Shown: in pieces, positions 5,818 through 43,881 of the stretch
Layout of the letters: each line of letters starts with the position of its first letter
Position numbering within the stretch: the stretch's first letter is position 1
Assembly: GCA_001825665.1 (NCBI GenBank)
Contig: MHXZ01000079.1
Span: forward strand, 1-43,881
Length of the DNA stretch: 43,881 nucleotides
Source of the DNA: Planctomycetes bacterium GWF2_41_51
Lineage (GTDB): Bacteria; Planctomycetota; Phycisphaerae; Sedimentisphaerales; UBA12454
Direction: 5' to 3'
Translations under genes and position numbers: made by a program
The notes under the pieces: generated by a model
Told to the model about the DNA's origin: nothing
What the model saw: only the letters and a program-made list of their open reading frames with translations
The model's database searches: none

Positions 5818-5829
5818 TTTTATTTTAGA

Positions 5830-5856
5830 GTGGGGCTGCTTGTGAAGGCAGCCCAC
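5830..5856 (-). terminator. Hairpin between the EF-G-like gene and copA
   Basis: On the minus strand GTGGGCTGC (5856-5848), a CTTCACAA loop and GCAGCCCCAC (5839-5830) form a stem of nine pairs with one bulged C. It begins 6 bp after the stop codon of the EF-G-like gene and ends 12 bp before the chosen copA ATG. The following TCTAAAATAAAAA is AT-rich but not a clean U-tract, so it may be a partial terminator or an attenuator rather than a strong terminator. Confidence 0.45.
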
Positions 5857-5862
5857 GCAATT

Positions 5863-8165: not shown

Positions 8166-9689
8166 ATGAAAAGATTTTTATGCCTGGCAATTATTGCTTT
8201 TTCATCTTCAATTTCTATCGCTGCGATTACCCTTCCTTCGATTATCTCCGACAATATGGTTTTGCAGGCAGATTCAATTGCTCCGATTTGGGGCAATGCA
8301 GAACCAAACAGTAAAATTACAATTTGCCCTTCGTGGAATAAAGAAACCATCGTCACAGAATCAGACGACCAAGGCAAATGGACAGCAAAAATCAAAACCC
8401 CAAAAAAAGGTAAAAAATGCAAGCTGATAATATCCTGCGGCAAAGAAAGCAGAACTATAACTAATATTCTCATCGGTCAGGTTTGGCTTTGCAGCGGACA
8501 GTCCAACATGCAATGGACTGTTAAACAATCCACCAATGCAGATAAAGAATTATTGGAAGCAAAATTCCCTAATATCAGATTGTTCAGCGTAAAAAGAGCG
8601 GTGGCTGAAGAACCGCAGAATGATTGTTTTGGCCAGTGGGTCGAGTGTAACGCTGAAACAGCGGCTGAATTCAGTGCTGTCGGATATTACTTCGGGAAGA
8701 AACTTCATAAAAAACTGAGAACTCCTGTTGGCCTTATTAATTCCTCTTATGGAGGAACGCCTGCTCAATCATGGACAAGCAAGGATACTCTTATTAATGA
8801 TCCATCATTGAAACAGTACGTTATAACTGATGCCAACAATAAGGCCAATAAAGACGTTTATGAAAAGCAATACGCTCAAACTCTCAACGAATGGAAAAAA
8901 GAAGTAATGAAAACAGTCGCTGCCGGTAAACCTGCAAAAAGAAAACCGAAGCCCCCTCTTGAGTTGAGAGAAGAACAAAAATCCGCAAGTATATATAACG
9001 CAATGATTCATCCATTAATCCCATTTGCGATTAAAGGTGTTATATGGTATCAGGGCGAGTCAAACGCATCTAATGCCGATAACGCAATTCTTTATAGAAC
9101 ATTGTTCCCTGCGATGATTTCAAATTGGCGAAATGACTGGCAGCAGGGAGATTTTCCTTTTTACTATGTTCAGCTTGCAGCTTTCGGAAAGACTGATTTG
9201 ACAAAATCGAATTGGGCTTTATTAAGAGAGGCTCAAACAATGACATTATCTCTGCCAAACACAGGAATGGCTGTTGCTATGGACATCGGTGAGCCGAATA
9301 ATATCCATCCCAAAAACAAACAGGAAGTCGGCAAACGTCTTGCGATTTGGGCATTTGCCAAAGATTATGGTTATAAAAATATAATATATTCCGGCCCTAT
9401 ATACAAAAGTATGCAAATTGAAGACGATAAAATAAGAATTTTCTTCGACTATGCCAAGTCAGGCCTTAAAACGCCAAAACGCCAATCGCTGAAAGGTTTT
9501 GCAATAGCCGGTGAAAATGGAAAATTCGTTTGGGCAAACGCAACGATTGAAGACGGAACTGTTTTAGTATGGTCAGACCAAATTAAAAATCCAAAACATG
9601 TTCGCTATGGCTGGACAGATTATATAGAATGTAATTTATATAACAAAAAGAATTTGCCCGCATCTCCTTTCAGAACAGACAATTTTTAA
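8166..9689 (+). CDS. Secreted sialate O-acetylesterase-like SGNH esterase
   Basis: This is a secreted carbohydrate acetylesterase of the sialate O-acetylesterase (SASA/SGNH) family. A signal peptide covers residues 1-20 and ends in SIAA. The N-terminal beta domain has the family hallmark SDNMVLQ (28-34). The esterase nucleophile is Ser113 in GQSNM, block III is WYQGESN, and the catalytic His lies in the NIHPKNK segment near residue 380. In plant-polysaccharide loci such enzymes usually remove acetyl groups from hemicellulose or pectin rather than from sialic acid; no sialic-acid genes are nearby. The ribosome-binding site is AAAGGG just before the ATG. The CBM9-like gene follows 9 bp later, so the two form an operon. 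Confidence 0.88.
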   Translation: MKRFLCLAIIAFSSSISIAAITLPSIISDNMVLQADSIAPIWGNAEPNSKITICPSWNKETIVTESDDQGKWTAKIKTPKKGKKCKLIISCGKESRTITNILIGQVWLCSGQSNMQWTVKQSTNADKELLEAKFPNIRLFSVKRAVAEEPQNDCFGQWVECNAETAAEFSAVGYYFGKKLHKKLRTPVGLINSSYGGTPAQSWTSKDTLINDPSLKQYVITDANNKANKDVYEKQYAQTLNEWKKEVMKTVAAGKPAKRKPKPPLELREEQKSASIYNAMIHPLIPFAIKGVIWYQGESNASNADNAILYRTLFPAMISNWRNDWQQGDFPFYYVQLAAFGKTDLTKSNWALLREAQTMTLSLPNTGMAVAMDIGEPNNIHPKNKQEVGKRLAIWAFAKDYGYKNIIYSGPIYKSMQIEDDKIRIFFDYAKSGLKTPKRQSLKGFAIAGENGKFVWANATIEDGTVLVWSDQIKNPKHVRYGWTDYIECNLYNKKNLPASPFRTDNF

Positions 9690-29838: not shown

Positions 29839-29912
29839 GCGCTCGTAGCTCAGTAGGATAGAGCGTTGGTTTCCTAAACCAAAGGTCACAGGTTCGAATC
29901 CTGTCGGGCGTA
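29839..29912 (+). tRNA. tRNA-Arg (anticodon CCT)
   Basis: A complete 74-base cloverleaf is visible. The acceptor arms GCGCTCG (29839-29845) and CGGGCGT (29905-29911) pair with two G-T wobbles; the discriminator is A29912. The D arm is GCTC/GAGC. The anticodon stem TTGGT/ACCAA holds loop TTCCTAA with anticodon CCT, which reads AGG. The T arm is ACAGG/CCTGT with loop TTCGAAT. CCA is not encoded. Its 3' third overlaps the end of the serine recombinase gene on the other strand, marking it as the integration site of the island. Confidence 0.95.
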
Positions 29913-31394
29913 TTCAACAGGACGGTTCGCGTTTTTTGCCAGTATTGCGAACGGTAACCTGTAGTCTGCACAAAGACTTACGCCATTTAATTCCAAGTTC
30001 GAGAACACCGAATTTGCGATTTGGCGTTTTTGTGGCGGTTTGAACGTAACATATTGTCTTGAAAGGTCTTGTGTGAGTTCGAGAATTTTCATCGGTCTGC
30101 CGTTATCTTCCTGAACACCTGATTTGACCTGTTCAAAACGATGTTGCAGCAAAGTTACTTCACTTTGCCGCTCTTGTGCCAGCCTCATGAATCCATCAGC
30201 GAGGCTGTCTTGTGCTTGAGCGGCCCTAAGCAGAATAGCATCTACGGTCTTTTGCGATTCAGATATCTTCCTTTTTAACGACTTCAATTCATTTTCAACA
30301 TCAGAGACTTCCTGAATTGAAGACCTTTTCAGGTACTCCAAGACCCAGTCATAAATGTCTTTGGGTAACACCAGCTTTTCCAGCAAGGACACGATTTGCA
30401 ATTCAATCTTTTGCTCCGGAACCCATGCCGGTTTTTCAACATGGTCAGTATGTCTTCGCTGAGCACAAATATAATATGTGTACTGTTTTTTGTGCGTTTC
30501 CGCTGTTACATTGTAACCACAATCAGCACATTTGATCAGCCCATGACCGTATGTAAAACTTCGTTTCTGAAGAGATTTGGTATTGCTGCGGCCATCGAGA
30601 ACATTCTGGACTTTTTGCCAAACCTTCTCGCTTACAATCGGCTCATGTTTGCCCTCGTAAATCTGACCATGCCAAAGTATTTTGCCAATATAAAATGGGT
30701 GACGAAGCATTCTCGCCAAATGAGAACGTGTCCACCTGCGTGTTTTTGCAGAAAAATACATCCCACGTTTGAAAAGTTCTTCTCGAAGTGTATCGATAGA
30801 ATACTGGCCAGTTGCCATCAACTTAAATATTGTACGGACATTTTCGACTTTTTCGGGATCAGGTGTCGGAAGTCGGGAATCTTTTGATTCCTTGACTGTC
30901 AGATAGCCGTATGGGGGCTTGTGGGGATATTCACCGGCTTCAATTTTACCTCGAAAACCTTTGTTGACCTCTTCTCGGAGATTATCAGTATACCATCGGG
31001 CCACAACACCCATTACGCCTACACTGAGTCGGCCTGCTGCGTTTTGGGGGAACTCCTGTGTAGCAAAGAAAATCTGTTTGTTTTTCTCTGTCTCCAAAGC
31101 TTCCAGCATGGCCAGATCCGTAATATTGCGACATGCACGGTCTACTTTGTGAAATACTGCTCCGTCTATTGTTGTATCTTTGCGGAGTCTGTCAATAATC
31201 TCCCGAAACCTCTTTCTCTCTTTTTGCTTGGATGCGGTTTCAATATACTGAACCGTATCGACAATTGTATAACCTTTGCGTTTTGCCCATTCGTGATTGG
31301 CCTGATTTTGTGCCTCAAGGCTGTACCCCTCGCCTTGTTCATTCGATGATACCCTGCAGATGTTAAGCAGTCTTAATGGCATGTTATTTTTCAT
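29886..31394 (-). CDS. Large serine recombinase (integrase)
   Basis: This is a 502-residue site-specific recombinase of the large serine type. The resolvase domain (about 7-150) starts LLNICRVSSNEQGEGYSLEAQ, with the nucleophile at Ser16 in the RVS motif. A recombinase domain (about 165-270) follows, with PPYGYLTV and RMLRHPFYIGKILW. A zinc ribbon (CADCGYN ... YYICAQRR, about 286-310) and a long coiled coil with an EL(K)SLKRKI pattern (about 355-430) complete it. The last nine residues, EYARQDSNL, and the stop are encoded by the antisense of the tRNA-Arg 3' end. It overlaps the small gene upstream by 11 bp, indicating translational coupling. It probably inserted the island; activity is inferred from intact motifs. 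Confidence 0.93.
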   Translation of the reverse strand: MKNNMPLRLLNICRVSSNEQGEGYSLEAQNQANHEWAKRKGYTIVDTVQYIETASKQKERKRFREIIDRLRKDTTIDGAVFHKVDRACRNITDLAMLEALETEKNKQIFFATQEFPQNAAGRLSVGVMGVVARWYTDNLREEVNKGFRGKIEAGEYPHKPPYGYLTVKESKDSRLPTPDPEKVENVRTIFKLMATGQYSIDTLREELFKRGMYFSAKTRRWTRSHLARMLRHPFYIGKILWHGQIYEGKHEPIVSEKVWQKVQNVLDGRSNTKSLQKRSFTYGHGLIKCADCGYNVTAETHKKQYTYYICAQRRHTDHVEKPAWVPEQKIELQIVSLLEKLVLPKDIYDWVLEYLKRSSIQEVSDVENELKSLKRKISESQKTVDAILLRAAQAQDSLADGFMRLAQERQSEVTLLQHRFEQVKSGVQEDNGRPMKILELTQDLSRQYVTFKPPQKRQIANSVFSNLELNGVSLCADYRLPFAILAKNANRPVEYARQDSNL

Positions 31395-31587
31395 AATTGC
31401 TGCCCTTGTTAGCTAAAACCTGTAAAAACTGGCCAAAATCCTCTATTATCCGGTCGGCCTCTTCTTCGGAAATCGGCCTTCCTGCTACTTTGGACCAGAC
31501 ACGCTGTGTGTATTTACGAAATTCTACCACACCTTTTATGTCGGGCGCAAGTGCTTTTTTAGGATTTTTTTCAGCTATGCTTATCAT
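31384..31587 (-). CDS. Small conserved recombinase-linked protein
   Basis: The 67-residue acidic/basic protein has a helical core VVEFRKYTQRVWSKVAGRP followed by an EEEADRIIEDFGQFLQVLA helix. It has no membrane segment or cysteine. Its 3' end overlaps the recombinase start by 11 bp, so it is translated from the same message just before the integrase. Short proteins of this pattern (GRPxSxEEAxxII...) sit in front of serine recombinases in other genomes as I recall, but no function is known to me. It could be a regulator or recombination directionality factor; that is speculation. Confidence 0.65.
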   Translation of the reverse strand: MISIAEKNPKKALAPDIKGVVEFRKYTQRVWSKVAGRPISEEEADRIIEDFGQFLQVLANKGSNYEK

Positions 31588-31657
31588 CTGTTATTGTGGA
31601 TATATTTGTGTTTACAAATTCAACATTTTACGGATATCTTATTTTTCTAATTGTTGA

Positions 31658-32599
31658 TTACAGCCAGACAACTCCGGCATCGTCTTTTTTGATTTCGATA
31701 ATATCTTCTTCACTTAATCCTGAGGGGTATTGCAAAAACCTCATCTTACTAATGTCGTAGTATTTCCGCATACTTCGTTGTACATTCTTGATTAAACGCA
31801 CTACATAATCCGACCAGTTTTGCCTTATGCGGATATTCTTAATAGCAGCAGCTTCTACACGGTAGCCTTCGGCTTCAAGTGCCTGCTCTGTTAGTATTAG
31901 GCCTCTGCCTCGCGGATTGACGGCTTCGGCAAAGATTTCTTCAACGCCGCAGTCAACGGCAAATTTAACCAATTCATCGATTTGGGCAGGTGAATCCGCA
32001 ACCGAAGGTAAGATCGGACAGAACATTCCATAGGTTCGCAATCCTCGTTCGTGGGCTTGCCTAACGGTTTCCATTCGTTCTTCGATGCTGGATGCATTTG
32101 GTTCAATTATCTTGATGCGATTGCTCTTATCCGGCGTTGCTGTAATGCTTAAGCCAACAAGTACACGGTCGGAATGTTTTTCGATGAGGTCAAAATCATT
32201 TTTTACGGCAGCATTTTTGGTTAAAATGCGAACCGTCCAGTCAAGCTCTGAAAGAATCGCTTCCAGGCATTTTCTGCCAAGATCATGTTCCTGCGCTTCA
32301 GGCGACCACGCATCTACAGTTGTGCAGAGTTGAACCATCGCTCTTTTCCTGATCTTGCGGGCATCACGAGCCACCCGTTGAGGGGTGGTGGGATCGACAA
32401 TTGCGTAGCCATTATCAAATGCCGATAAGCCTAATTCTTTAAATGCGTGGTGGACTCTGAGCATTGCACCTGTCGAGCAGTATGTGCATGCGTGTCCGCA
32501 TTTGAGGCCAATATTGACAGCAAATTGAGCTAACCCTTTTTTCTCAAATTCTTTTGTTCGACTGATACCATTCTTCAATTCCCATTCGTAAGTTTTCAT
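31658..32599 (-). CDS. Radical SAM protein, spore photoproduct lyase-like (COG1533 type)
   Basis: This is a radical S-adenosylmethionine enzyme. The iron-sulfur motif is Cys34-x3-Cys38-x2-Cys41 (KCGHACTYC), inside an N-terminal FAVNIGLKCGHAC block like that of SplB/COG1533 proteins. Further family features are TTVDAWSPEAQ, the RILTKNAAVKNDFDLI strand and LVGLSITATPDKSNRI near residue 150. The ATG at 32599 is preferred over 32644: an AGGAGT ribosome-binding site lies just upstream. The gene is last in the leftward series of membrane/chaperone genes, 25 bp after the preceding one. The substrate is unknown; COG1533 proteins include DNA photoproduct lyase and uncharacterised members in mobile regions. 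Confidence 0.85.
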   Translation of the reverse strand: MKTYEWELKNGISRTKEFEKKGLAQFAVNIGLKCGHACTYCSTGAMLRVHHAFKELGLSAFDNGYAIVDPTTPQRVARDARKIRKRAMVQLCTTVDAWSPEAQEHDLGRKCLEAILSELDWTVRILTKNAAVKNDFDLIEKHSDRVLVGLSITATPDKSNRIKIIEPNASSIEERMETVRQAHERGLRTYGMFCPILPSVADSPAQIDELVKFAVDCGVEEIFAEAVNPRGRGLILTEQALEAEGYRVEAAAIKNIRIRQNWSDYVVRLIKNVQRSMRKYYDISKMRFLQYPSGLSEEDIIEIKKDDAGVVWL

Positions 32600-32624
32600 A
32601 ATTGTACTCCTATGATTTAAATGA

Positions 32625-33080
32625 TTATTTGACAACAATTTCACTTTTGACCTTCGTTATCTGGTTTTCTTTTCTCTGTTGATCTATTGCAATGGCCTTA
32701 TTTTTGTGACCATAAAATGGTCTGAAAAAGCTGCTTACACCATCGGCGAACATCGCAAGATTTGCGACTACGAGCAGCAGAAGAAAACTCATTCCCAACG
32801 CCAGATAAGGCAACAAGATGGTATGGAATGTGTCTTCCTGGTTTTGTGAAGGGAGATTCTGTTGCAAGACTCCTGTGGCACCAGGTGGACTTTCATGCTG
32901 CTGCGGGAAAAATTCCACTACCCCAACAATAAACAGCATTGCCACACAGAGGGCGATCATAAAGCTGCCAAACCCCGAAAAAGTGGAGTGCCGGTTCAGT
33001 GCGTTCCATGTTGCCATAAACACAACTCCCAGTAGCGGCAGAATGATTAACCAGCCGTAATTTTCAACATTTGCTAACAT
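32625..33080 (-). CDS. Three-segment membrane protein
   Basis: The 151-residue protein has hydrophobic segments at about residues 8-25, 38-57 and 87-112. A polar Gln/Pro-rich loop (about 60-85) and a charged, Lys-rich C-terminus follow. The topology suggests an integral inner-membrane protein with its basic tail in the cytoplasm. A GGATCGGATT ribosome-binding region precedes the ATG. It belongs to the leftward gene series that starts at the Hsp70 fragment, separated from the next membrane gene by 211 bp holding a TGCCCG ... CGGGCA inverted repeat (about 33,182-33,222). I do not recognise the family. Confidence 0.6.
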   Translation of the reverse strand: MLANVENYGWLIILPLLGVVFMATWNALNRHSTFSGFGSFMIALCVAMLFIVGVVEFFPQQHESPPGATGVLQQNLPSQNQEDTFHTILLPYLALGMSFLLLLVVANLAMFADGVSSFFRPFYGHKNKAIAIDQQRKENQITKVKSEIVVK

Positions 33081-33291
33081 AATCCGATCCTTTCTTTTCG
33101 AGTTTTAGAAGTAACTTTGTTTGTTTCCATTGCATCGAATCTACCATACTGTTCTGACCCTGCGGTGCCTTTCGACGGAATTTGCCCGGAAATCTAACAC
33201 ACTGTTAACTGTCGGGCAGCGATATCCGGTCCAATCTTTTAATAGAGTCATCTTTGTCTGACTTGCCAACAGTCACTTGGGCATTTTACGG

Positions 33292-33585
33292 TTATCGTTT
33301 TCTTCTTTTTTGGGTTTTATTCCTAAGGGCCACGATGAATGACATCAGCTTAATCACTATGACGATTGTCCCTAAGACGGCAGACGGCAGAAGAACGATT
33401 TTCATCATATGATGTTTGAGACCCATCCCAATGATGGCGGGTATCAATATCGAAGACGCCAGAGATCCGAGCTTATTAAGTCCCAGAACTTCATTTGCAG
33501 AGCGAAACCCTAGAACTCCAATGGCGATTAAAATCGGCACCAACAGGATTATCTCTAATACATCGATTATGGTGAGAGTAACCAT
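33292..33585 (-). CDS. Small multi-pass membrane protein
   Basis: The 97-residue protein starts at an ATG at 33585 and has three hydrophobic stretches (about residues 6-24, 38-54 and 61-84) and a strongly basic tail ending KTQKRRKR. The in-frame start at 33657 is possible, but would overlap the preceding gene by 37 bp and add 24 polar residues. A GAAAG sequence upstream is the likely ribosome-binding site. The basic tail predicts a cytoplasmic C-terminus. Family not recognised; its position inside the Hsp70/vWA/J-like series suggests a membrane partner of those proteins. Confidence 0.6.
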   Translation of the reverse strand: MVTLTIIDVLEIILLVPILIAIGVLGFRSANEVLGLNKLGSLASSILIPAIIGMGLKHHMMKIVLLPSAVLGTIVIVIKLMSFIVALRNKTQKRRKR

Positions 33586-33620
33586 TGTACAGTTCTTTCT
33601 TTTCTGATTTCTCTGACTTG

Positions 33621-33905
33621 TTATAGAAGGATGACAAGCATCAAGCGTGTGATCCATAAAGAGAAAACCAACAGGTTAAATAATGTTCGCTGCGAATACG
33701 TTTTGTCGGTATACCTTGACACCAACCGCTGGAAACGATCCAGCACAACCGATATCAACGGATCGAGCACATCGACGATTTGTTTCAGCCAGGATGGTTT
33801 CCATCTTTGGTAGACGGCCTTTGCTAAAAAAATCAATAGCAGAATATCCATTGCGACAAATACCAGGTTGACCACGCTGATAAATAAATTTGTTAGTAAA
33901 CCCAT
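33621..33905 (-). CDS. Small membrane protein with a weak YggT-like look
   Basis: The 94-residue protein has a long N-terminal hydrophobic segment (about 5-30), a central amphipathic stretch (KPSWLKQIVDVLDPLISVVL) and a C-terminal hydrophobic segment (about 76-94). The DPLISVVLDRFQRLV part recalls one half of YggT proteins, but the match is weak. A very good AAAGGAGT ribosome-binding site lies 6-8 bp before the ATG at 33905. It begins 3 bp after the stop of the J-like gene, so it is firmly part of that operon. Function unknown. Confidence 0.65.
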   Translation of the reverse strand: MGLLTNLFISVVNLVFVAMDILLLIFLAKAVYQRWKPSWLKQIVDVLDPLISVVLDRFQRLVSRYTDKTYSQRTLFNLLVFSLWITRLMLVILL

Positions 33906-33908
33906 TTT

Positions 33909-34325
33909 CTATACTCCTTTCGCTGAACGCATGAATAAAACAGTAATGACCAGTAAGAACCAAACGATGAGAAAAAGCTTGGTTACGAATTTTGGAAATG
34001 GCACCATTTCAACTAAACTATCCCAATATTGGGACAACTCCTGTATTACATCCCAAATGGTTGTTGCCTTCGTCGTGTTTTGTCGAGTAGTCGTTGTTCT
34101 TTGCTTTTTAGGCCTGTTTGTTTTCGGTTGTTTCGTTTGCATGATCTTCCAGGCTGCCGTCAATTCGGTCAAATCAGACAGGGCCCGCTGACGAACTGAA
34201 CTGGGATTGCCCGGCAATATACGGATATGAAGCGCCTGCTGCTTTTGGCGGTAGGCTTTCTCTGCCGATTTGGGGCTGGCAGAAGCGGAAATACCTAAGA
34301 TTTTATGAGCATCTGTCTTTGTCAT
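33909..34325 (-). CDS. Degenerate J-domain protein with C-terminal membrane anchor
   Basis: Residues about 4-60 resemble a J domain (DAHKILGISASASPKSAEKAYRQKQQ... DLTELTAAWKIM), the module that activates Hsp70. The essential HPD tripeptide between helices II and III is missing; the loop reads HIRILPGN. A Lys/Thr-rich linker (about 65-90) leads to a single membrane segment (about 112-131) near the C-terminus, followed by a short basic end. ATG 34325 overlaps the vWA stop codon as ATGA and has AAAGGAG upstream, so it is chosen over 34343. Without HPD it may bind Hsp70 without stimulating it, or act as a scaffold. That is inference. Confidence 0.7.
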   Translation of the reverse strand: MTKTDAHKILGISASASPKSAEKAYRQKQQALHIRILPGNPSSVRQRALSDLTELTAAWKIMQTKQPKTNRPKKQRTTTTRQNTTKATTIWDVIQELSQYWDSLVEMVPFPKFVTKLFLIVWFLLVITVLFMRSAKGV

Positions 34326-35020
34326 TGATTGTCTCCTTTCCAAATCAGGCCTGTAGCCAATTGGCGATAGTGTTGTTTTAATGTGCGTGCATCTGCGATA
34401 AAGCGGTAATGATTCGTGCCATCCGGCTCTGTCGTTGCCACCTTTCGTAGTAGAGATTCATTTACGTCCTCGGGGCTGCCGCCGATACCGATGACATCTA
34501 TGACGGCACCGTACCGTTGTTTGAGTTTATCAGGGATGCTGATCGGGCAATTGCCGAAACCATCGGTCAAAAGGATAATCTGACTTCGACCGTTTAAGTC
34601 TATGTGGCTATGCAGTAAGCTTGTTGCCTGTTGTAAGCCCTGACCAATGTTGGTACTGCCTTCTGCCCTGATCGACCGTATACCCTGGATAATCTCCATG
34701 GAGTTGTTAATCGCTGTAGGAGTCACCATGACTTTAGCTTCATCATTAAACGCGATTACCGCTATGTTGGCATTTGCGTTTTGCCCTACCAAGGTACTTA
34801 AATACTCAATGGCAGCATCCTTCGCGGCCTCCAGTCGGTTTGGCAAATAATCTTCAGTTTGCATGCTAATCGAGCAGTCAATGATGATAATAATGAGTGT
34901 GGCAATACTATCGTGCAGAGCCGCCAACTGGCGGCCGGTTTGGGAAATCCCAAACCGGTCACCATTGATCGCCGATTGCAGCTTGTTATTGAAAGCCTGT
35001 ATCGTTGATAAAATGTTCAC
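34322..35020 (-). CDS. von Willebrand factor A (vWA) domain protein
   Basis: The 232-residue protein is essentially one vWA domain. The metal-ion-dependent adhesion site is complete: DxSxS at Asp48-Ser50-Ser52 (DCSISM), the Thr in EGSTNIGQGL near residue 121 and the Asp in ILLTDGFG near 153. It has no signal peptide, so it is cytoplasmic. Start is GTG, supported by AAAGGAC 7 bp upstream. It starts 15 bp after the Hsp70 fragment stop and its own stop overlaps the J-like start (ATGA), so all three are translated together. vWA proteins of this kind act as metal-dependent adaptors in complexes with ATPases or chaperones. Exact partner unknown; Hsp70 is the obvious candidate. Confidence 0.85.
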   Translation of the reverse strand: MNILSTIQAFNNKLQSAINGDRFGISQTGRQLAALHDSIATLIIIIIDCSISMQTEDYLPNRLEAAKDAAIEYLSTLVGQNANANIAVIAFNDEAKVMVTPTAINNSMEIIQGIRSIRAEGSTNIGQGLQQATSLLHSHIDLNGRSQIILLTDGFGNCPISIPDKLKQRYGAVIDVIGIGGSPEDVNESLLRKVATTEPDGTNHYRFIADARTLKQHYRQLATGLIWKGDNQ

Positions 35021-35035
35021 TCTATAGTCCTTTCT

Positions 35036-36250
35036 TTAGTTGCTGTGCCTGGAAACAAGCTGGTTTCGTTGATCATTAATCTGACTGTCAGAAAGTCCTG
35101 TGTGGAATTTGAACCTAATAGGTACCGGCTTATTGAGTACCTTGTCGCGAACCTTGATGTCCACCATACCCTCAGTGTCCATAGTCACCTTAAACTCAAT
35201 ACGACCATGGTTTTCATCTCCACTTGTTGGCTGGACATCCACCTCAACTTGTTGCAGAGGAGTGAAGTTGCTGGATAACTCTCCCGGCATCCCATCGATC
35301 AATTTAACCTTCACTGTCATTTGTTGGGCATCAATGGGGCTAAAGCACTCGATAGCCTCAAAAGGAAGCTTCGCCCCGGAGGGAATGATAGGGCAATTGT
35401 ACTCTGTGTGATTATCAGCACTTTTTTTGGTAATCGCCGCAACACATAAATCTCTGCCTGCGATCATGCTTGGCTTAATCGAAGAAGCAAGGTAACGATA
35501 CTCTCCGATACTTAAAATGCTGTCTGGTTTACCAAAATACGCAGTGGCCAAGATGGCATTGCCTTTCGCCACAGCCATATCAGGATCGGTATCCGTTACG
35601 GGCTCTTTACCAAAGATTTCTTCCACGATCTCTGGAATAAACCGCAACCGGCTGCTGCCTCCCATCAAGATAATCCTGTCGATCTCAGAAGCATTCATCT
35701 CGGCCTTTTCAAGGGCTCTGCTGCAGCATTGCCGTAAGGTTTCGATGACAGGGGCAGCATCATCCTTGAGTTGGTCGTAGGTAATCTCCATCGAATGTCG
35801 ATGACTGCCAACTCTCAGATTGATAACCGCGGTGTCCTTATGTGCCAGTATTTCCTTGGCTTGTTTGCAGGCATCCAGAGCTTCCATCCATTCGGCCTGA
35901 TCTTTTTGAAGGTCAAGTTTATCCCCTTTGCTTTCGACAAACTTACGAACCCGCTGGAAGATGGCCTCATCGATATTGCTGCCGCCGCACTCAGAATCGC
36001 CATCGACGGCGATCTGTTCGATAGTTGCGTCAGCTTTTAATTGCAGGATACTGATGTCGAAGGTGCCGCCTCCAAAGTCGAATACAGCAATTTTCTGATC
36101 CAGCCCTTTGGAAAGGCCGTAAAAGGTCGCCCCTGCCGTTGGTTCGTCCACAATGTGTACCTTCTGGAAACCGGCGATGAGTCCGGCCTGCTTCGTCGCC
36201 AGTCTGGCCGGTCTCTTAAAGTAGGCTGGGACACTGATAGCCGAATATTG
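35036..36250 (-). pseudogene. Hsp70 (DnaK/HscC-like) with missing N-terminus
   Basis: The reading frame is Hsp70 from about its VPAYF motif onward: ISVPAYFKRPARLATKQAG and IVDEPTAGATFYGL (seen upstream of the GTG at 36151), then the phosphate-binding FDFGGGTFDISIL, ECGGSNIDEAI and ILMGGSSRLRFIP. A short substrate-binding beta domain follows; the helical lid is absent, as in HscC-like proteins. About the first 130 residues, including the first phosphate loop, are lost. Homology stops at about 36,247, where a stop codon is met and sequence of the rightward Res fragment begins. It could still be translated from the GTG at 36151, but would not fold as a working ATPase. Promoter and 5' end are therefore missing for the whole leftward operon. 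Confidence 0.85.
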
Positions 36251-36251
36251 T

Positions 36252-37982
36252 CAGGTCAATCGTCTGCCTATGGTGAAACCCTTTGTTTTGATTTCAACAA
36301 AAGATACAACTCACGCCGGCCAGATTAAAGCCTTCATCGAATCTGATAGTTTTTGTGAGGGAAGGTATGCTGGGAAAGTTATTGAAATCCATTCCGGCAC
36401 AAAGGGCGCTGAAAGCGATGAAAATGTAAGCCGGCTGCTTGCGGTCGAGCAGCCAACCAGTAATGTTGAAATCGTTATCCACGTTAATATGCTCAAAGAA
36501 GGCTGGGATGTAAAGAACCTTTACACCATTATTCCATTGAGAGCCTCGATTAGTGAAATATTGACTGAACAGACGATAGGACGAGGCTTGCGTTTGCCTT
36601 TTGATGGGAAAATAACCGGAGAATACGACCTCGATGCCCTTGAGATTATTTCTCACGATCAATATGCCAAATTGATACAAGAAGCAAAAGACAGTCCCAT
36701 TTTCAAATTTAAAGAGCTTAATGAAGATGACTTAAGGCCTGTCAAGACAGTTCCGGTAGCTCATAAGTTTATTGACTTAGATAATGTTCTGGACCGCATT
36801 TCCAAAGGAGGTAATGTTCTGTTTACATCGGAATTGACAAATGAGCAAAGGCTAAATGAAGTCGTGCAGGAAATTGTTGCCGAGGAAACTGCAAGGTATG
36901 AAATGATTACGAAGCTGGGTGCAGAATCAGAAGAAGTAAAGCAGGTTATAAAAGAACAGCCGACACTTTTTGAAGTTGCGGCTCCAACAGAAGCAGCAAA
37001 GAAATTTGATCCAGCCGTTCTGGAAGCGGATTTAAAAGATAGATTACGAAGATATGCCAGAGCAAGTATCGATGTGCCACACATTATCACCGAAACTTAC
37101 ACAGACAGAAAGCTGGAACCTTTTGATGTAAAAGTAAATATTGGTCCGTTCGAGTTGGTTGAGCAGCGAGTATTGACGCATGAGCTTGCCAGTGGTGAGG
37201 AAAGAATTGGCGAACAGCTTGATGTTATGGAAATTGAAAATCCAAGGGCTTTTCTGGCGGGCAGATTGATAGATACAATTGAAGAGTTGGATGTTGCAAA
37301 TGACAAAGAGGCTGTATTGGCTTTAGTGGATGGCTATATCTCTCAGATTGATAAGTCCGCAGATGATTTCAAAAAGATTACTCACCTTTATAGGGATGCG
37401 ATTATCAGAGACCTTAAAAATCAGGTCGAAAGCCATATACAGGATGAATCCAAAGTCGAAGCACAGGTTCGTAGCGGCTTTATAAAGTTCAGGCCTTATT
37501 CAAAAACCGTTCTTGAGAAAGACGGTATTGTGCCTTATACGCAGCAGGTGCCTCGTTCTGATGTGAAGCGTTATTTGTTTGAAGGTTTTGTGAAATCACT
37601 CTATCCACAAGTTACATTTGACTCTACGCCTGAGAAAGATTTCGCTGCAATCTTGGAGAAAGACCATGATGTGGTGAAGTGGATTCGTCCACCGGAGGGA
37701 AATATCCCAATTTTATATAAAGGGCGAAACTACAATCCGGACTTTATTGTTCAAACGAATATGACAAAATACATTATTGAAGTCAAGGCAAGAAATGAAC
37801 TTGAGCCTCAAATGAATCAGGAAGTAAAAGATAAAGCTATTGCGGCGATTCGCTGGTGTAAGCTCGCCTCAGATGTTGAAAAACAGTTTAAATGGGAATA
37901 CAAACTGATACCTGATGATATAATCAAGTCCGGCTATGACTTGAAATTTGTTCTCGGAAATTCAATAAATTGTGAACAGTAA
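36252..37982 (+). pseudogene. C-terminal half of a type III restriction Res subunit
   Basis: The open frame matches the second helicase lobe and nuclease of type III Res/DEAD-like restriction subunits: KPFVLISTKDTTHA, motif V VNMLKEGWDV, motif VI QTIGRGLRLP and, near the end, the PD-(D/E)xK nuclease signature NPDFIV ... IIEVKA. The first lobe with Walker A and DExx motifs, some 400-500 residues, is missing. In-frame codons continue upstream of the first ATG (36270) to about 36,252, where Hsp70 sequence on the other strand begins. The coding frame is otherwise intact for 570 codons. The ABC-3C gene follows 28 bp later on the same strand. Without the ATP-binding lobe it cannot be an active restriction enzyme. 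Confidence 0.85.
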
Positions 37983-38010
37983 AATATGCAGATGAACTCA
38001 AGGACAGAGT

Positions 38011-39099
38011 ATGGCTAGTGATAATAAAGTTAATTCTAAGATGGAGCTTACAACAGAAAGCGTTGTAATGGGGCCGATAGTAAGCCCGGTGGATAGGATC
38101 AAACTTTACAGTCCGAATGAGTGGGAAGAATTCATAAAAGAATGGGCCGAATCCTTAAAATCTGATTATTACCATGTCGAACGATTAGGAGGAGCGGGTG
38201 ACATGGGGAGAGATATTGTGGCTTCCACCGGTGATCCAGCTACCTGCTGCCCCTGGGATAATTATCAATGTAAGCATTACGATCATAGTTTGATGCCTGG
38301 AGATATATGGGTAGAGCTCGGGAAATTATGTTATTACACCTTCATAAAAGAGTTCACTCTTCCGAGAAAATATTATTTTGTAGCTCCGCAAGGTATCGGA
38401 ACCAAACTGTACGATCTTTTAAGCAAACCAATAAAGATTAAGAAAGAGTTGATTTCTATTTGGGACAAAAAATGTAAGGATAAAATTGCCGCTAAGAATG
38501 AAATTCAATTAGATGGTAAATTTAAAGAATATGTTGAGGATTTTGACTTTAGTATTGTTTGGTATAAAAAAATTAGTGAAATTATAGAGCGGCATCGTAA
38601 AACAAATCTTCACATAGCTCGCTTTGGAGGAGGATTACCACTACGTCCGGCACCTGAATCTCCCCCCAGTAGTATCCAAAGCAAAGAAGTCAGATATGTA
38701 AGACAGCTTCTTGATGCCTATGGAGATGCTGCAAATACGCAGTATTCCAATCCAGATGAACTTAATTGTCACAAGACATATCGAAGTCATTTTGACCGTT
38801 CACGTGAAAGATTTTATTGTGCAGAATCACTACGTGTATTCTCAAATGATACACTTCCGCAGGGTGAATTTGATAAATTACAAGAGGAAATATATGATGG
38901 AGTTGTTGACATTGCCGAATCAAGTCATAGTAATGGATATGAAAGAGTTAAGGCTACAACAAATCAAGCAACAACAATTAATATTAACAGCCATCCCCTA
39001 AAAAGCTGTCTCAAAAATAATGACAAGAGTGGGATATGTCATCAATTGGCTAATAATAATAGACTTGTATGGGTGCCTCAAAATGACAAAAACAAGTAA
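38011..39099 (+). CDS. ABC-three-component (ABC-3C) system nuclease-type protein
   Basis: This 362-residue protein resembles the effector/C-terminal component of ABC-3C conflict systems. Residues about 30-130 look like a restriction-endonuclease fold, with RLGGAGDMGRDIV and NYQCKHYD giving an Asp ... Gln-x-Lys active-site pattern. The conserved ELGKLCYYTF, KYYFVAPQGIGTKLYDLL and ARFGGGLPLRP blocks follow, then RSRERFYCAESLRVFSNDTLP and the C-terminal GICHQLANNNRLVWVPQ. An AAGGAC ribosome-binding site lies before the ATG. It overlaps the middle-component gene by 17 bp, the typical ABC-3C arrangement, but the ABC ATPase is not present in the window. Likely antiphage or conflict role, probably inactive without its partners. 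Assignment is from memory of the family. Confidence 0.8.
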   Translation: MASDNKVNSKMELTTESVVMGPIVSPVDRIKLYSPNEWEEFIKEWAESLKSDYYHVERLGGAGDMGRDIVASTGDPATCCPWDNYQCKHYDHSLMPGDIWVELGKLCYYTFIKEFTLPRKYYFVAPQGIGTKLYDLLSKPIKIKKELISIWDKKCKDKIAAKNEIQLDGKFKEYVEDFDFSIVWYKKISEIIERHRKTNLHIARFGGGLPLRPAPESPPSSIQSKEVRYVRQLLDAYGDAANTQYSNPDELNCHKTYRSHFDRSRERFYCAESLRVFSNDTLPQGEFDKLQEEIYDGVVDIAESSHSNGYERVKATTNQATTININSHPLKSCLKNNDKSGICHQLANNNRLVWVPQNDKNK

Positions 39100-39223
39100 T
39101 CTAAATTTTTGGAGTAAGCCATTTAATAGCCCTTTTGAAAGTGGTTTGAGGTCTCTAATTATTTTGACCGAAGCTTACCCTGAAGCATTTGATTTGCAAA
39201 GGTTAGTGAAGCATTTGATATGA
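39083..39223 (+). pseudogene. Truncated ABC-3C middle component
   Basis: The start (ATG 39083, inside the end of the nuclease-type gene) reads FNSPFESGLRSLIILTEAYP followed by EAFDLQRLV, the N-terminus expected for an ABC-3C middle component, normally well over 100 residues. After LQRLV the frame runs KHLI and stops at 39223. A one-base frame change would restore AFD, which I recall following LQRLV in intact relatives, but then similarity is lost. So the gene has both a likely frameshift and a breakpoint at about 39,219. It supports the idea that only a fragment of the ABC-3C locus is left. Confidence 0.7.
39181..39219 (+). repeat. Short direct repeat at the end of the ABC-3C fragment
   Basis: TGAAGCATTTGAT occurs at 39181-39193 and again at 39207-39219, 26 bp apart, at the point where the ABC-3C middle component loses its similarity. 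Part of the repetition may reflect the protein's own repeated Ala-Phe-Asp, part may be a slippage or joining scar. Confidence 0.5.
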
Positions 39224-39303: not shown

Positions 39304-40098
39304 ATGAACAACAGAGATTTTGTAGATAGGCTGAGAGCTGCTAAAATATACGATCCAGTTGGAGACTACAAAATGGTTACTGAGCATGCATCATTAGTCG
39401 ATAGGATGTATTTTTTTGGAAAACAAAGGGATAGATACCTTAAGGAAGCAGAGTTTATTGCACAACAAATAAAAGACACTTCTGGCGGAAATAGTTATGT
39501 TGATGCGGGGTGCGGCACAGGAATACATTTGATGTTAATGAAGAAAAAAGGATTTGAGGCTTCAGGTTTTGACATAAGACAGCAGATGGTTGATGTTGCA
39601 CTAAAAAGAAATCCTAATATAACTCTCATTCAAGGTGATATGAGGAATTTTCCATTAGGTGACAGAGTGCATGGAATAAGTGCAATGTATGGTGCAATTA
39701 ATTATATAGATACGGAAGAGGGGATTAGGAAAACCCTTAGAGGATTTTCTGATCATTTGACAGAAGACGGCGTTGCGATTGTTGACACACGATATCACCC
39801 AAATCTTGACGAAGGAGTAAAAATGTGGTCAACAAATTCATGGATGCTTGCAAAGCGATGGGTGAAATGTACGGGGGGGATGGATAGTGTCTATAGGGTT
39901 TTTTATGCAATACCTGATGAGGGTGTGATGGAAATGGAAGATCATAGACAGTACTTTCAAAATCCATTTTGGATAGCAGATCGGATGCTAGAAGAAGGAT
40001 TTGCGAGGACCAAAATATTTGACTCATACGAGAGGGATAAAGAGTTTGAGCCATCATCAGGAAGCGCCTTATCTGTTGCTGTAGGGTATAAAAAATGA
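39304..40098 (+). CDS. Class I SAM-dependent methyltransferase
   Basis: The 264-residue protein has the Rossmann-type methyltransferase core. Motif I is SYVDAGCGTGIHL (residues 64-76), an acidic end of strand 2 is in FDIRQQM, motif II is LIQGDMRNFPLGD, and ISAMYGAINYI and GVAIVDTRYHP follow. It resembles small-molecule N-methyltransferases such as those of aminosugar biosynthesis more than protein or DNA methyltransferases, but the substrate is open. AAGGAACTT precedes the ATG. Its stop overlaps the next start (ATGA at 40095), so the prenyl-synthase-like protein is translationally coupled. Base composition is distinctly more AT-rich than the chaperone module to its left. Confidence 0.85.
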   Translation: MNNRDFVDRLRAAKIYDPVGDYKMVTEHASLVDRMYFFGKQRDRYLKEAEFIAQQIKDTSGGNSYVDAGCGTGIHLMLMKKKGFEASGFDIRQQMVDVALKRNPNITLIQGDMRNFPLGDRVHGISAMYGAINYIDTEEGIRKTLRGFSDHLTEDGVAIVDTRYHPNLDEGVKMWSTNSWMLAKRWVKCTGGMDSVYRVFYAIPDEGVMEMEDHRQYFQNPFWIADRMLEEGFARTKIFDSYERDKEFEPSSGSALSVAVGYKK

Positions 40099-41075
40099 GA
40101 AACATCTTTTTTGAAGAATCAAGTCATATAAGAGAAGCGATTCGAAAGAGGATTGATCGAGTGACGGAGCAGATTCCTCATCCAAAGTTGCGGGATATTA
40201 TACGCCAAAGGAATAAGACATCGAGCTTTCTTAAGGGTGCAATTGGATATTATATTCATGAAGGTGTTGGAGGGATTTATCCAGAAGAGCAAAGATTGGA
40301 ACTAGCAACGGGGATTGAAGTTTTATGCAGTTCGGGGGCGATATTTGACAATGCTATTGATGAACATGAAGAAAGAAACGGGGAAACAACATTTCTAAAA
40401 GAATATGGAGTCTGGATGCAAATAGCAGCGTCTCAATACGTTCTTCATCGTGGGCTTAAAATGTTATTTCCTTTCATGAGTATTTATACTGAAAAATTCT
40501 TTCATATGTATTCTATCGATGATGCAGTTATTGGTATGGTAGGAATGGATATTGAAAGCTCAAACAATCTGGATGAACAAATAAAAATAACAGAAAAGAG
40601 CAATGGACGGTTCGCTGAAGTGCCTTTAGTAATCGCGGCAACAACAGGTACAGAGGATACAATAACAATTGAGTATATTTCAAAATTTGGGTATTGCCTT
40701 GGAACAGCCTTAGGGATTTATGAAGAGGTGAGAGATATGTTGGGTAAGCATGGCAGGAGGAGAGCCACTGAAATCGAAAGAGGAAGATTTGCAATACCTT
40801 TGCACTATGCTAATGATATGAAAGGATTTAAAGCAAGTGATTATATTGGGAAAACAATTAATGACGATGCTTATCGGTCAATGATTCGAGGAGTCATACA
40901 ATCTGGATCCCTAAGAAAAACTCAAAATCTTGCAGGTACCTATTTTCAGAAAGCAGAGGATGCTTTGTATTTTGCTGTAAATAAATTTTGTTTCGATAGG
41001 CTAAAGGGTTTGTTGGAATCAGTATCTTTGGAACTCGAAGAAATGATTAAAGAAGTAGAAAATATTTATCAGTAA
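40095..41075 (+). CDS. Divergent trans-isoprenyl diphosphate synthase-like protein
   Basis: The 326-residue all-helical protein has the spacing of trans-prenyl synthases. The first Asp-rich motif is FDNAIDE (Asp85, Asp89, Glu90) in place of DDxxD. The second is IYEEVRDMLG (Glu210, Glu211, Asp214), again altered from DDxxD. ERGRFAIPLHYA stands where GKxTLPxxxA is expected. The early GGKRxRP lysine/arginine site is not recognisable. It resembles specialised relatives such as ComQ-like enzymes more than housekeeping IspA. Loss of Asp residues could alter metal binding or turn it into a pseudo-enzyme. It overlaps the methyltransferase by 4 bp and is followed 87 bp later by a Nudix gene, suggesting a small pathway. 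Product unknown. Confidence 0.65.
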   Translation: MRNIFFEESSHIREAIRKRIDRVTEQIPHPKLRDIIRQRNKTSSFLKGAIGYYIHEGVGGIYPEEQRLELATGIEVLCSSGAIFDNAIDEHEERNGETTFLKEYGVWMQIAASQYVLHRGLKMLFPFMSIYTEKFFHMYSIDDAVIGMVGMDIESSNNLDEQIKITEKSNGRFAEVPLVIAATTGTEDTITIEYISKFGYCLGTALGIYEEVRDMLGKHGRRRATEIERGRFAIPLHYANDMKGFKASDYIGKTINDDAYRSMIRGVIQSGSLRKTQNLAGTYFQKAEDALYFAVNKFCFDRLKGLLESVSLELEEMIKEVENIYQ

Positions 41076-41162
41076 CAAGAAGACACTTATTTAGATTAAG
41101 AGATTGCTGGATCGCATATCAGACCTAAAATTATTTAAATTAAACATTGTAAATTTAATAGT

Positions 41163-41621
41163 ATGGAAGTCAATAAGAACTATGTAGGAATAGTAATCGA
41201 AAATCCTATAGGTGAGTTCCTCTTTCAACTTAGAGACAATAGGTTAGGTTTGCCTCACCCTAACAAATGGAGTTTGTTTGGAGGTGGGATAGAATATGGT
41301 GAAAATCCGGTTCAGGCAATATTGCGCGAAGTTAAGGAAGAATTAGGTTTTAATCTTATAGCAAGAGAACTTAGATTGCTTTTTAAAAAGGAGTCCAAGA
41401 GAGAAAAGAGATATGTCTTCTACTATAAACTTAAGGAAATGCCTATGAAGTTTAAACTAAATGAGGGACAAAAATATGAATTCTTACGATTCCGAAACAT
41501 ATTGTTTAAGAAAAACTTTGTTCCTTCTCTGAAGTTCTTTATGCTTTTATACCCCTTTTTTAAGATGGCCCAAACATCCATCAGCTTACGTTGGTTGAAG
41601 CCCTATAGAAGGGTTGCATGA
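41163..41621 (+). CDS. Nudix hydrolase
   Basis: The 152-residue protein has a perfect Nudix box: Gly41-x5-Glu47-x7-Arg55-Glu56-Val-x-Glu59-Glu60-x-Gly62-Phe, which binds the metal that attacks a nucleoside diphosphate-type linkage. The N-terminal VIENPIGEFLFQLRDNRLGL and PNKWSLFGGG segments resemble GDP-mannose hydrolase and related Nudix proteins. The C-terminus (about 110-152) is hydrophobic and basic. Intergenic DNA of 87 bp separates it from the prenyl-synthase-like gene on the same strand; an AAATTTAATAG sequence precedes the ATG with no clear ribosome-binding site. Substrate unknown; an isoprenyl diphosphate or nucleotide sugar is conceivable in this context. Confidence 0.88.
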   Translation: MEVNKNYVGIVIENPIGEFLFQLRDNRLGLPHPNKWSLFGGGIEYGENPVQAILREVKEELGFNLIARELRLLFKKESKREKRYVFYYKLKEMPMKFKLNEGQKYEFLRFRNILFKKNFVPSLKFFMLLYPFFKMAQTSISLRWLKPYRRVA

Positions 41622-42594: not shown

Positions 42595-42937
42595 ATAGTT
42601 AACACTCTAAACGGATATTTAAATATTGTGTTCTGCTAAAGAGTAAAAAGTTTAAGGAAATAGTTAGCCTTAAATCAATAGCATAGGCAACTCACCGCCT
42701 AAGTTCTGGAATCCCCAAAACGGCATAAATTACATTTTTAACTCCTCATATCTCTGCTAAAATTGCCTTTGTTGCTCACGAGGATAGTAAAGAAACGAGA
42801 GACTCTAAATCTTTGTTTTATTGGAGTTAAGTGTTAAATCCAGGTTTTTAATGAGTTGACAAAAAAGAGGGCAAATTGAATTCCGCTCCCACCGCCAACC
42901 GAATGGGAGGCCATTTTGTTCCCAGGTTTGAGTAAAA
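42595..42937. other. Non-coding gap between DUF4190 and DUF6527 genes
   Basis: No convincing gene is seen in this 343-bp AT-rich stretch. An inverted repeat CTCCCA (42886-42891) and TGGGAG (42904-42909) with a 12-base loop lies about 30 bp past the DUF6527 stop codon in the leftward direction, and a TCTTTTTT run follows further on. It could act as a weak terminator for the ubiquitination-like operon. Confidence 0.4.
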
Positions 42938-43288
42938 TCAATGAATAATAGTTTTGCACCATTGGATTTGGCCTTTTCTTACGTAAAAATGGCTTCTGCA
43001 TCCGATGGTTCTATTTATAGAGGGAAACAGGGTCACAGTTCTGTCGTTGTGAATTTCGATCTTCCAATTAGGCCGACTTTTTTGGTCAAGATTCATGTAT
43101 AGAATTTCACCACAACCGCATGGACAAACCATTGCAGTAAACCATAGGTACCCGCCTTCGCCAGCAATGTATATTTTGTTGGGATGGAGTTTGTCTGGCA
43201 CTTCTGTGACCTGCTCTGCTTTGAAGCGGGACTCCCCAAAGAAAACGCTTCTGAGAAACTTACCAATTTTCTGTAGATATCGCATCAT
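42938..43288 (-). CDS. DUF6527 protein (BubE-like) of a bacterial ubiquitination-like operon
   Basis: The 116-residue protein matches the DUF6527 pattern: a basic N-terminal stretch, LHPNKIYIAGEGGYLWFTAMVCPCGCGE (Cys55, Cys57, Cys59), then W-x-IEI, VTLFPSINRT near residue 88, and CRSHFYVRKGQIQWC (Cys97, Ser99, His100). DUF6527 proteins occur next to E1/E2-like genes; in the Bub systems they are called BubE and, as I recall, have been described as a serine-protease deubiquitinase-like enzyme. Clustered Cys and His could bind zinc. The start (43288, or the adjacent 43285) is 6 bp after the E1-like stop codon, so the two genes are one operon, with DUF6527 last. The family is recognised by eye, not by search. 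Confidence 0.8.
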   Translation of the reverse strand: MMRYLQKIGKFLRSVFFGESRFKAEQVTEVPDKLHPNKIYIAGEGGYLWFTAMVCPCGCGEILYMNLDQKSRPNWKIEIHNDRTVTLFPSINRTIGCRSHFYVRKGQIQWCKTIIH

Positions 43289-43294
43289 ATTCGC

Positions 43295-43881
43295 TTAATC
43301 ACTTAGAGTTGGCATATCCAAAAGAGGGGTTCTGTCGCCTTTACCAACATGCTTTGCGAGAACCACACATTTTTCAAAGTCGGACGAATAATAGATCCTG
43401 CTCTGCGTCAAGCTGCTGCCAAATTGGGCAAAGCGGTTATTATCATCGTCACGAAATTGATGAATTCGAGCAAGAAACTCGATGACGGCCATACTTGCAT
43501 AATGCATATTAATACTTATGACGGCAGGACTGTCAACATTTACGCCCTTGATATATTTTTCCTTGTATTGCTTTTCGTATAATGCAGGATTCGTACGCAT
43601 CATACCTTCGGCTTCAATGCCGTCGAGGGTAATTACATTTCGACTCAATAAACTCGATTTTCCAGACTGTAAATAGTTAACGCTTCCGCATATTTGGCTA
43701 ATATTTCCCTTGCCATCAGCTTCAAGCTTCACGCCAACATCGAAATAAGGTATTTGGTAATAGGTAGCAAGCCGATTTAATAGATGGTGTCCGTCCGGTG
43801 AAGCACCTCTTTTTTTGCGGTGGATAATCGCGATAATCGGCTCATGTTTATTGAAAGGATTTGAACATGAGCAAGCTAAAA
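43295..43881 (-). CDS. E1-like ThiF-family adenylyltransferase, C-terminal part, 5' end beyond window
   Basis: The gene enters from the right edge and 195 codons are visible. Typical E1/ThiF features are SPDGHHLLNRLATYYQIPYFDVGVKLEADG, in which an Asp-x-His loop precedes the LNxLA helix and the PYFDVGV strand. CGSVNYLQSG, VISINMHYASMAVIEFLARI and the terminal VGKGDRTPLLDMPTLS are also present; the last pattern is characteristic of E1-like proteins of bacterial ubiquitin-like operons. The nucleotide-binding GxGxxG and catalytic Cys regions must lie outside the window. A GTG at 43732 is an internal codon, not the start, because the homologous frame continues upstream without a stop. It would activate a small ubiquitin-like protein by adenylation. 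It is followed by DUF6527 in the same operon. Confidence 0.8.
   Translation of the reverse strand, partial: LACSCSNPFNKHEPIIAIIHRKKRGASPDGHHLLNRLATYYQIPYFDVGVKLEADGKGNISQICGSVNYLQSGKSSLLSRNVITLDGIEAEGMMRTNPALYEKQYKEKYIKGVNVDSPAVISINMHYASMAVIEFLARIHQFRDDDNNRFAQFGSSLTQSRIYYSSDFEKCVVLAKHVGKGDRTPLLDMPTLSD

Follow-up and report, generated by a model that had tools for sequence, protein, structure and literature searches.

Two gene fragments that lie head-to-head and abut without a spacer raise a question: how did both come to lose their 5′ ends at the same point? The window analyzed here is the whole of contig C79 (43,881 bp), part of a 4.83-Mb genome (G000 below) that comprises 138 contigs and is 95.6% complete. 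Features of its proteins, dockerin-like tails among them, point to a planctomycete. In it, profile searches and ORF reading showed that a minus-strand Hsp70 fragment and a plus-strand fragment of a type III restriction subunit (Res) meet at about 36240. Our answer is that this junction is probably the scar of one deletion, which would have halved both a mobile element and the neighboring defense operon.

The ends of the two homologies were located by tblastn and by alignment to full-length relatives. On the minus strand, Hsp70 homology (A-I-S-V-P-A-Y-F) extends as far as about 36241; on the plus strand, Res homology (A-E-Y-C-x-V-N) already begins at 36240. Within the breakpoint, which we place at 36238–36243 with no strand assigned, the two bases GC at 36240–36241 match both partners; the homologies overlap by these 2 bp, with no filler between them. 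Microhomology could extend to at most about 6 bp (TAGCCG, 36238–36243), a figure that presumes a favorable choice of the lost ancestral codons. A first-pass annotation of this DNA had proposed that Hsp70 and Res are both N-terminally truncated at one point and had called for comparison with relatives that keep either gene intact. Such full-length relatives bear out both truncations and the sharp, shared point; the ends it had given (36247 and 36252) must be moved, as the homologies overlap rather than being separated. The junction sequence is single-copy in the genome, its sole other match being a stretch of an Hsp70 paralogue at 68% identity, and its exact pattern found no match in viral contigs.

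The Hsp70-like gene occupies 35036–36241 on the minus strand (PF00012, E = 2.8e-50) with about 402 codons open; its longest start-to-stop ORF runs from 35036 to 36151 (371 aa). Measured against the full-length Hsp70 of genome G005 (524 aa, 60% identity), the fragment lacks residues 1–123, a loss close to the roughly 130 residues first estimated. The phosphate-1 region (DLGTT) is gone, and the fragment does not contain the complete N-terminal nucleotide-binding domain to which that motif belongs. The remaining fold matches PF00012 positions 168–510 in an open frame with no stops. With the N-terminal part of its nucleotide-binding domain gone, the fragment is likely dead, and an Hsp70 that lacks the phosphate-1 motif would be unable to cycle ATP. 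Because all of the DNA upstream of Hsp70 is gone, the operon has likely lost its promoter as well; a scan for promoter patterns returned no more matches above the junction than chance would give. The missing N-terminus of this copy was not found elsewhere in its own genome, which does have a long DnaK-like frame on contig C42 (670 codons, open). Relatives of this Hsp70 are rare: at E < 1e-70, among 397 genomes of the class, they occur only in the window's genome, G005, and G495.

On the other side of the junction, the 5′-truncated Res gene spans 36240–37982 on the plus strand (REase_III PDLC03648, E = 3.3e-71, in PADLOC; PF19778), and its longest ORF covers 36270–37982 (570 aa). We used as references the three closest proteins (860–872 aa, 62–64% identity), which come from Binatia (L033), Elusimicrobia (L034), and an unclassified source (L035). 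Relative to these full-length proteins, the fragment is without about 284 N-terminal residues, including Walker A and DESH, fewer than the 400–500 that had been supposed; what remains is the C-terminal helicase part plus the endonuclease domain (PF19778, E = 7.1e-07). The N-terminal half of the helicase, which carries Walker A and DE-x-H and by which a type III Res is recognized, is thus not present. Could this be a naturally split Res with a genuine start at 36270? We rule this out, as 93 of 100 Res homologues extend in frame for at least about 240 residues upstream of the break, several of the shorter ones ending at contig ends. A DE-[SAC]-H motif lies in the upstream frame of 96 of the 100. 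Given these extensions and their motif, the truncation is real and not a miscalled start.

A Mod-like gene stands directly upstream of Res in two of the three closest relatives (L033 and L035), where the Mod-type methyltransferase was named by reading its sequence. In the window's own genome, a search with a close relative's Mod returned only a weak 61-residue match, and the Res N-terminus was not found. Lacking Walker A, DESH, and a Mod gene, the fragment is not a working member of the type III (Mod-Res) restriction-modification systems. It is likely dead; a Res so reduced would be unable to translocate or restrict.

What lies downstream of Hsp70 identifies the left-hand partner. On the minus strand, an intact VWA-domain ORF (34322–35020; PF13519, 2.3e-22) is 37–48% identical to the VWA genes at the same position in four other elements. 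It is followed by a J-like, membrane-anchored cassette gene (33909–34343) with same-position homologues at loci L167, L168, L169, and L174; a Pfam search of this gene gave no match, and it is J-like by reading only. Next come a small membrane protein (33621–33905; homologues in L167, L170, and L174), then a small hydrophobic protein (33292–33657) and another small membrane protein (32625–33080), for neither of which was a homologue found in the other elements read. A radical SAM gene (31658–32644; PF04055) has a 65% identical copy in the element on contig C57 of the same genome, and a 67-aa ORF from the ORF list, with no function assigned (31384–31587), adjoins a large serine recombinase (29886–31394; PF00239, PF07508, PF13408). 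The 3′ end of the recombinase gene runs into the 3′ part of the plus-strand tRNA-Arg(CCT) gene (29839–29912), as in tRNA-inserted integrative elements; this tRNA is the insertion site and the surviving element end.

The order VWA, J-like protein, small proteins, integrase, tRNA is the same in L167, L168, L169, and L174. The ATPase, 246-aa protein, and GrpE-like genes expected upstream of Hsp70 are nowhere in the window. Compared with the sister cassettes, all that should precede Hsp70 codon 123 has gone, and on this gene order the Hsp70 "chaperone operon" represents the half of a mobile element that adjoins its integrase. The first-pass view of a stand-alone chaperone operon does not hold: these genes belong to an integrative element that is inserted in a tRNA gene and of which the other half is absent. 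In this the window element differs from other tRNA-inserted elements, its far end being missing. A second att site, that is, a repeat of the tRNA end, was sought in the window and not found; that alone proves little, as the sister elements, the intact ones included, show none either, and the element limits given here are tentative. We infer that the element has lost whatever preceded its operon and, probably, the far end as well.

The sister elements supply the lost half. Each Hsp70 cassette ends in an integrase beside a tRNA gene, in the window as in the four others: a tyrosine integrase at tRNA-Asp (G005:C12), a 433-aa ORF that reads like an integrase with tRNA-Met about 110 bp away (G495:C9), an integrase-like ORF at tRNA-Arg(TCG) (G000:C87), and a tyrosine integrase at tRNA-Asp (G000:C8). 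With the C57 element, at tRNA-Ser, the sister elements end at or near tRNA-Asp, tRNA-Arg(TCG), tRNA-Ser, and tRNA-Met. A complete cassette opens with a small cysteine-rich protein, a P-loop ATPase (weakly HerA/mad8-like), a winged-helix-like 246-aa protein, a GrpE-like protein (PF01025, 7.3e-07), and Hsp70, and continues with VWA, J-like, and small membrane proteins up to the integrase and tRNA. Hsp70 is full length and preceded by the GrpE-like and ATPase genes in three relatives (G005:C12, G495:C9, and G000:C87); the 246-aa gene is separate in the first two, and in the third its winged-helix part is fused to the ATPase. The C57 element shares the ATPase and a 257-aa protein, along with one small membrane protein and a radical SAM gene, the last being the 65% identical copy of the window gene; it carries an E1/E2-type ubiquitin-like cassette where the others carry Hsp70/VWA/J. 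That cassette (L170, G000:C57:1-12000, at 4723–7217) encodes ThiF (E1), whose N-terminal part matches JAB weakly, and an E2 of the Prok-E2_E type.

Taken as a group, L167, L168, L169, L174, L170, and window positions 29839–36241 look like an apparently unnamed family of planctomycete tRNA-adjoining elements, characterized by the HerA-like ATPase, the winged-helix-like 246-aa protein, either a GrpE/Hsp70/VWA/J or an E1/E2 cassette, and serine or tyrosine integrases. A literature search for the ATPase/GrpE-like/Hsp70/VWA/J cargo under a name found none; it did find related Hsp70/GrpE/VWA conflict systems. These are the predicted GTPase-centered (GAP1-N2) systems, whose operons group Hsp70 and GrpE genes and DnaJ domains; VWA domains, too, are known among these systems (eLife 2020 e52696, PMC7159879). 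In contrast with them, no GTPase, MoxR, or FNIII-repeat was seen in the present family, which has instead the weakly HerA-like P-loop ATPase, the 246-aa winged-helix-like protein, and an integrase. A search of viral contigs yielded no relative of the ATPase.

A second broken cassette occurs in the same genome. On contig C8 (L168, G000:C8:28000-42217), Hsp70 is 5′-truncated by about 17 codons at approximately 8180–8200 of that stretch (C8 ~36190) and is also frameshifted near codon 83; its head-to-head fusion partner is a DUF4416 gene without the first ~76 profile positions, the N-terminal half. The GrpE-like and 246-aa genes of this cassette were not found in the adjoining 28 kb. Farther along there is only a distant ATPase relative (23% identity), and no G005-type ATPase was found in the genome at E 1e-40 among the four of 13 candidates that were scored. 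This arrangement suggests that the C8 copy lost the same half of the element. Two of the three Hsp70 cassettes in the genome are therefore broken, each head-to-head with a truncated neighbor.

The DNA to the right of Res carries damage of its own. Lamassu normally consists of LmuA and LmuB, usually with LmuC (PMC10586767). Immediately right of Res, the plus strand holds a full-length LmuA, the Lamassu/ABC-3C effector with CTD6 (38011–39099; PF20282, 1.6e-46; LmuA profile, 2.2e-128, positions 4–334 of 336), and then the start of LmuC (39083–39223; LmuC PDLC03871, 2.3e-10, positions 7–39 of 156; MC2 PF20288, positions 1–30 of 145). LmuC breaks off at about 39210 after some 35 of ~156 profile positions, a second scar 3 kb from the first, and no SMC-like LmuB was seen among the ORFs after the stub; this leaves a complete LmuA, an LmuC stub, and no Lamassu system. 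With the Res 5′ end and the LmuC 3′ end both cut, the right-hand block is, as its genes read, a defense-island fragment damaged at both ends.

Beyond the stub, methyltransferase, polyprenyl-synthetase-like, and NUDIX genes stand in a row on the plus strand (39304–41621), with no counterpart in the stretches read from family relatives. A comparison with the DNA right of tRNA-Arg in G007:C212 and G011:C19 showed nothing that corresponds to the right-hand block; only the conserved left flank matches. A non-coding-looking repeat of about 112 bp (42779–42894) recurs on several contigs of the same genome and in G002, G003, G006, G010, G011, and G012, its copies being 75–87% identical; in an Rfam search at this position, no family reached threshold. 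At 42938–43879, a DUF6527 gene lies beside an E1-like C-terminal fragment that is cut by the contig end and shows 36% identity with a portion of the ThiF protein from C57, a pair that is possibly a remnant of a ubiquitin-like system. The last ~100 bp of the contig (43779–43881) are 93% identical both to G002:C167 and to a site close to where contig C22 ends, and are probably a repeat that stopped the assembly.

How might these two damaged blocks have been brought together? In the ancestor that we envisage, the mobile element would have occupied tRNA-Arg(CCT), with an operon (ATPase, 246-aa protein, GrpE-like protein, Hsp70, VWA, J-like protein, and small proteins) that ran leftward toward the serine recombinase. 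To the right of the element would have lain a defense island with a rightward Mod-Res type III operon and then the Lamassu genes. A deletion from about Hsp70 codon 123 to about Res codon 284 would have removed mod and the 5′ end of res together with the upstream arm and the far end of the element; illegitimate end joining would then have sealed the gap at 2–6 bp of microhomology. The outcome would be a dead Hsp70, a dead Res, and a stranded element without its own upstream sequence and one of its ends. Summed from relatives' genes, the minimum deletion is ~6.5 kb: ~4 kb for the stretch that starts with the Hsp70 5′ end and takes in the ATPase and small cysteine-rich genes (L167/L174), plus ~2.5 kb for Mod and the Res 5′ end (L035). 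We found no genome that still has the arrangement from before the deletion, and the ancestral layout is pieced together from separate relatives.

Illegitimate (microhomology) end joining typically leaves joins of this kind, in which a few bases (here 2–6) are shared. The junction resembles the microhomology-sealed deletions of genomic islands in that the fragments abut with few shared bases and no filler, and the intervening DNA is absent; it differs from them in nothing essential, only the two partners being unusual. We infer a single event, end-joining chemistry, and the loss of both function and promoter. The exact abutment and the conserved upstream gene order of the relatives support the earlier suggestion of a deletion that decapitated two divergent loci. 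The inversion offered beside it is unnecessary, because one deletion between a leftward and a rightward operon removes both 5′ ends.

The junction could also be an assembly or library chimera, in which the contig connects two loci that are unlinked in one genome or that come from two strains in a binned sample. The genome does look like a metagenome bin (138 contigs, 3.77% contamination, and 4.8 Mb compared with 1.7–2.9 Mb for most relatives), and GC falls from ~0.45 to 0.38 across the region. The tetranucleotide correlation between the two sides of the junction is 0.44, a value that falls within the range of other island pieces of the genome (0.38–0.67) and equally within that of foreign DNA of similar GC (0.07–0.59). 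A misjoin of two intact loci should, however, leave the reciprocal halves in the assembly, and neither the Hsp70 N-terminus, Mod, nor the Res N-terminus was found elsewhere in one that is 95.6% complete. Moreover, the junction lies outside repeats, and an overlap of 2–6 bp is far under any assembler's k-mer and too short for such an assembler to join. The ~112-bp repeat recurs in the same genome and in other family members, placing the right-hand DNA in the same lineage, and the two further truncation scars (lmuC at ~39210 and the C8 Hsp70/DUF4416 pair) favor real erosion. We therefore consider a chimera, which the first-pass annotation had offered as an alternative, unlikely.

A real rearrangement other than a deletion, either the end of an inversion or translocation or the capture of a ~3-kb res-lmuA-lmuC fragment (36240–39210) by illegitimate recombination, strikes us as quite improbable. 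Capture would account for a right-hand block that is cut on both sides, at the Res 5′ end and the LmuC 3′ end. Insertion of such a fragment into Hsp70 is nevertheless ruled out, since the rest of Hsp70, GrpE, and the ATPase do not resume to the right, and an inversion should have left the moved halves elsewhere in the genome, where they were not found. That the element's own serine recombinase made the junction, with 36240 as an attachment end, we regard as scarcely credible, even though the recombinase sits at the tRNA end of the element and the junction DNA CCGAATATTGTCAGG, compared by eye, faintly resembles the tRNA 3′ end TCGAATCCTGTCGGG. This likeness is explained by the Res frame, in which E-Y-C is conserved in three close relatives. 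The junction did not rank among the best in a window scan for att-like matches, which, together with the conserved E-Y-C reading, rules this origin out; a cut inside two coding sequences is also unlike a natural element end.

A single deletion thus remains our preferred account, and with it the head-to-head pair of half-genes becomes readable as one halved mobile element and its neighboring defense operon. For annotation, the Hsp70 fragment, the Res fragment, and the lmuC stub should not be counted as working genes. The junction itself is ordinary gene decay; the more interesting part is the repeatedly halved element family. It is a long shot, but the ATPase/246-aa/GrpE arm may be shed recurrently, and not by random decay, through breaks in the 5′ part of Hsp70, either owing to a cost or toxicity of this arm or because the element itself provokes the break. 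Should it prove true that sister elements lose this arm again and again, the ATPase arm would appear costly to carry, and this would offer a handle on the role of the unnamed element.
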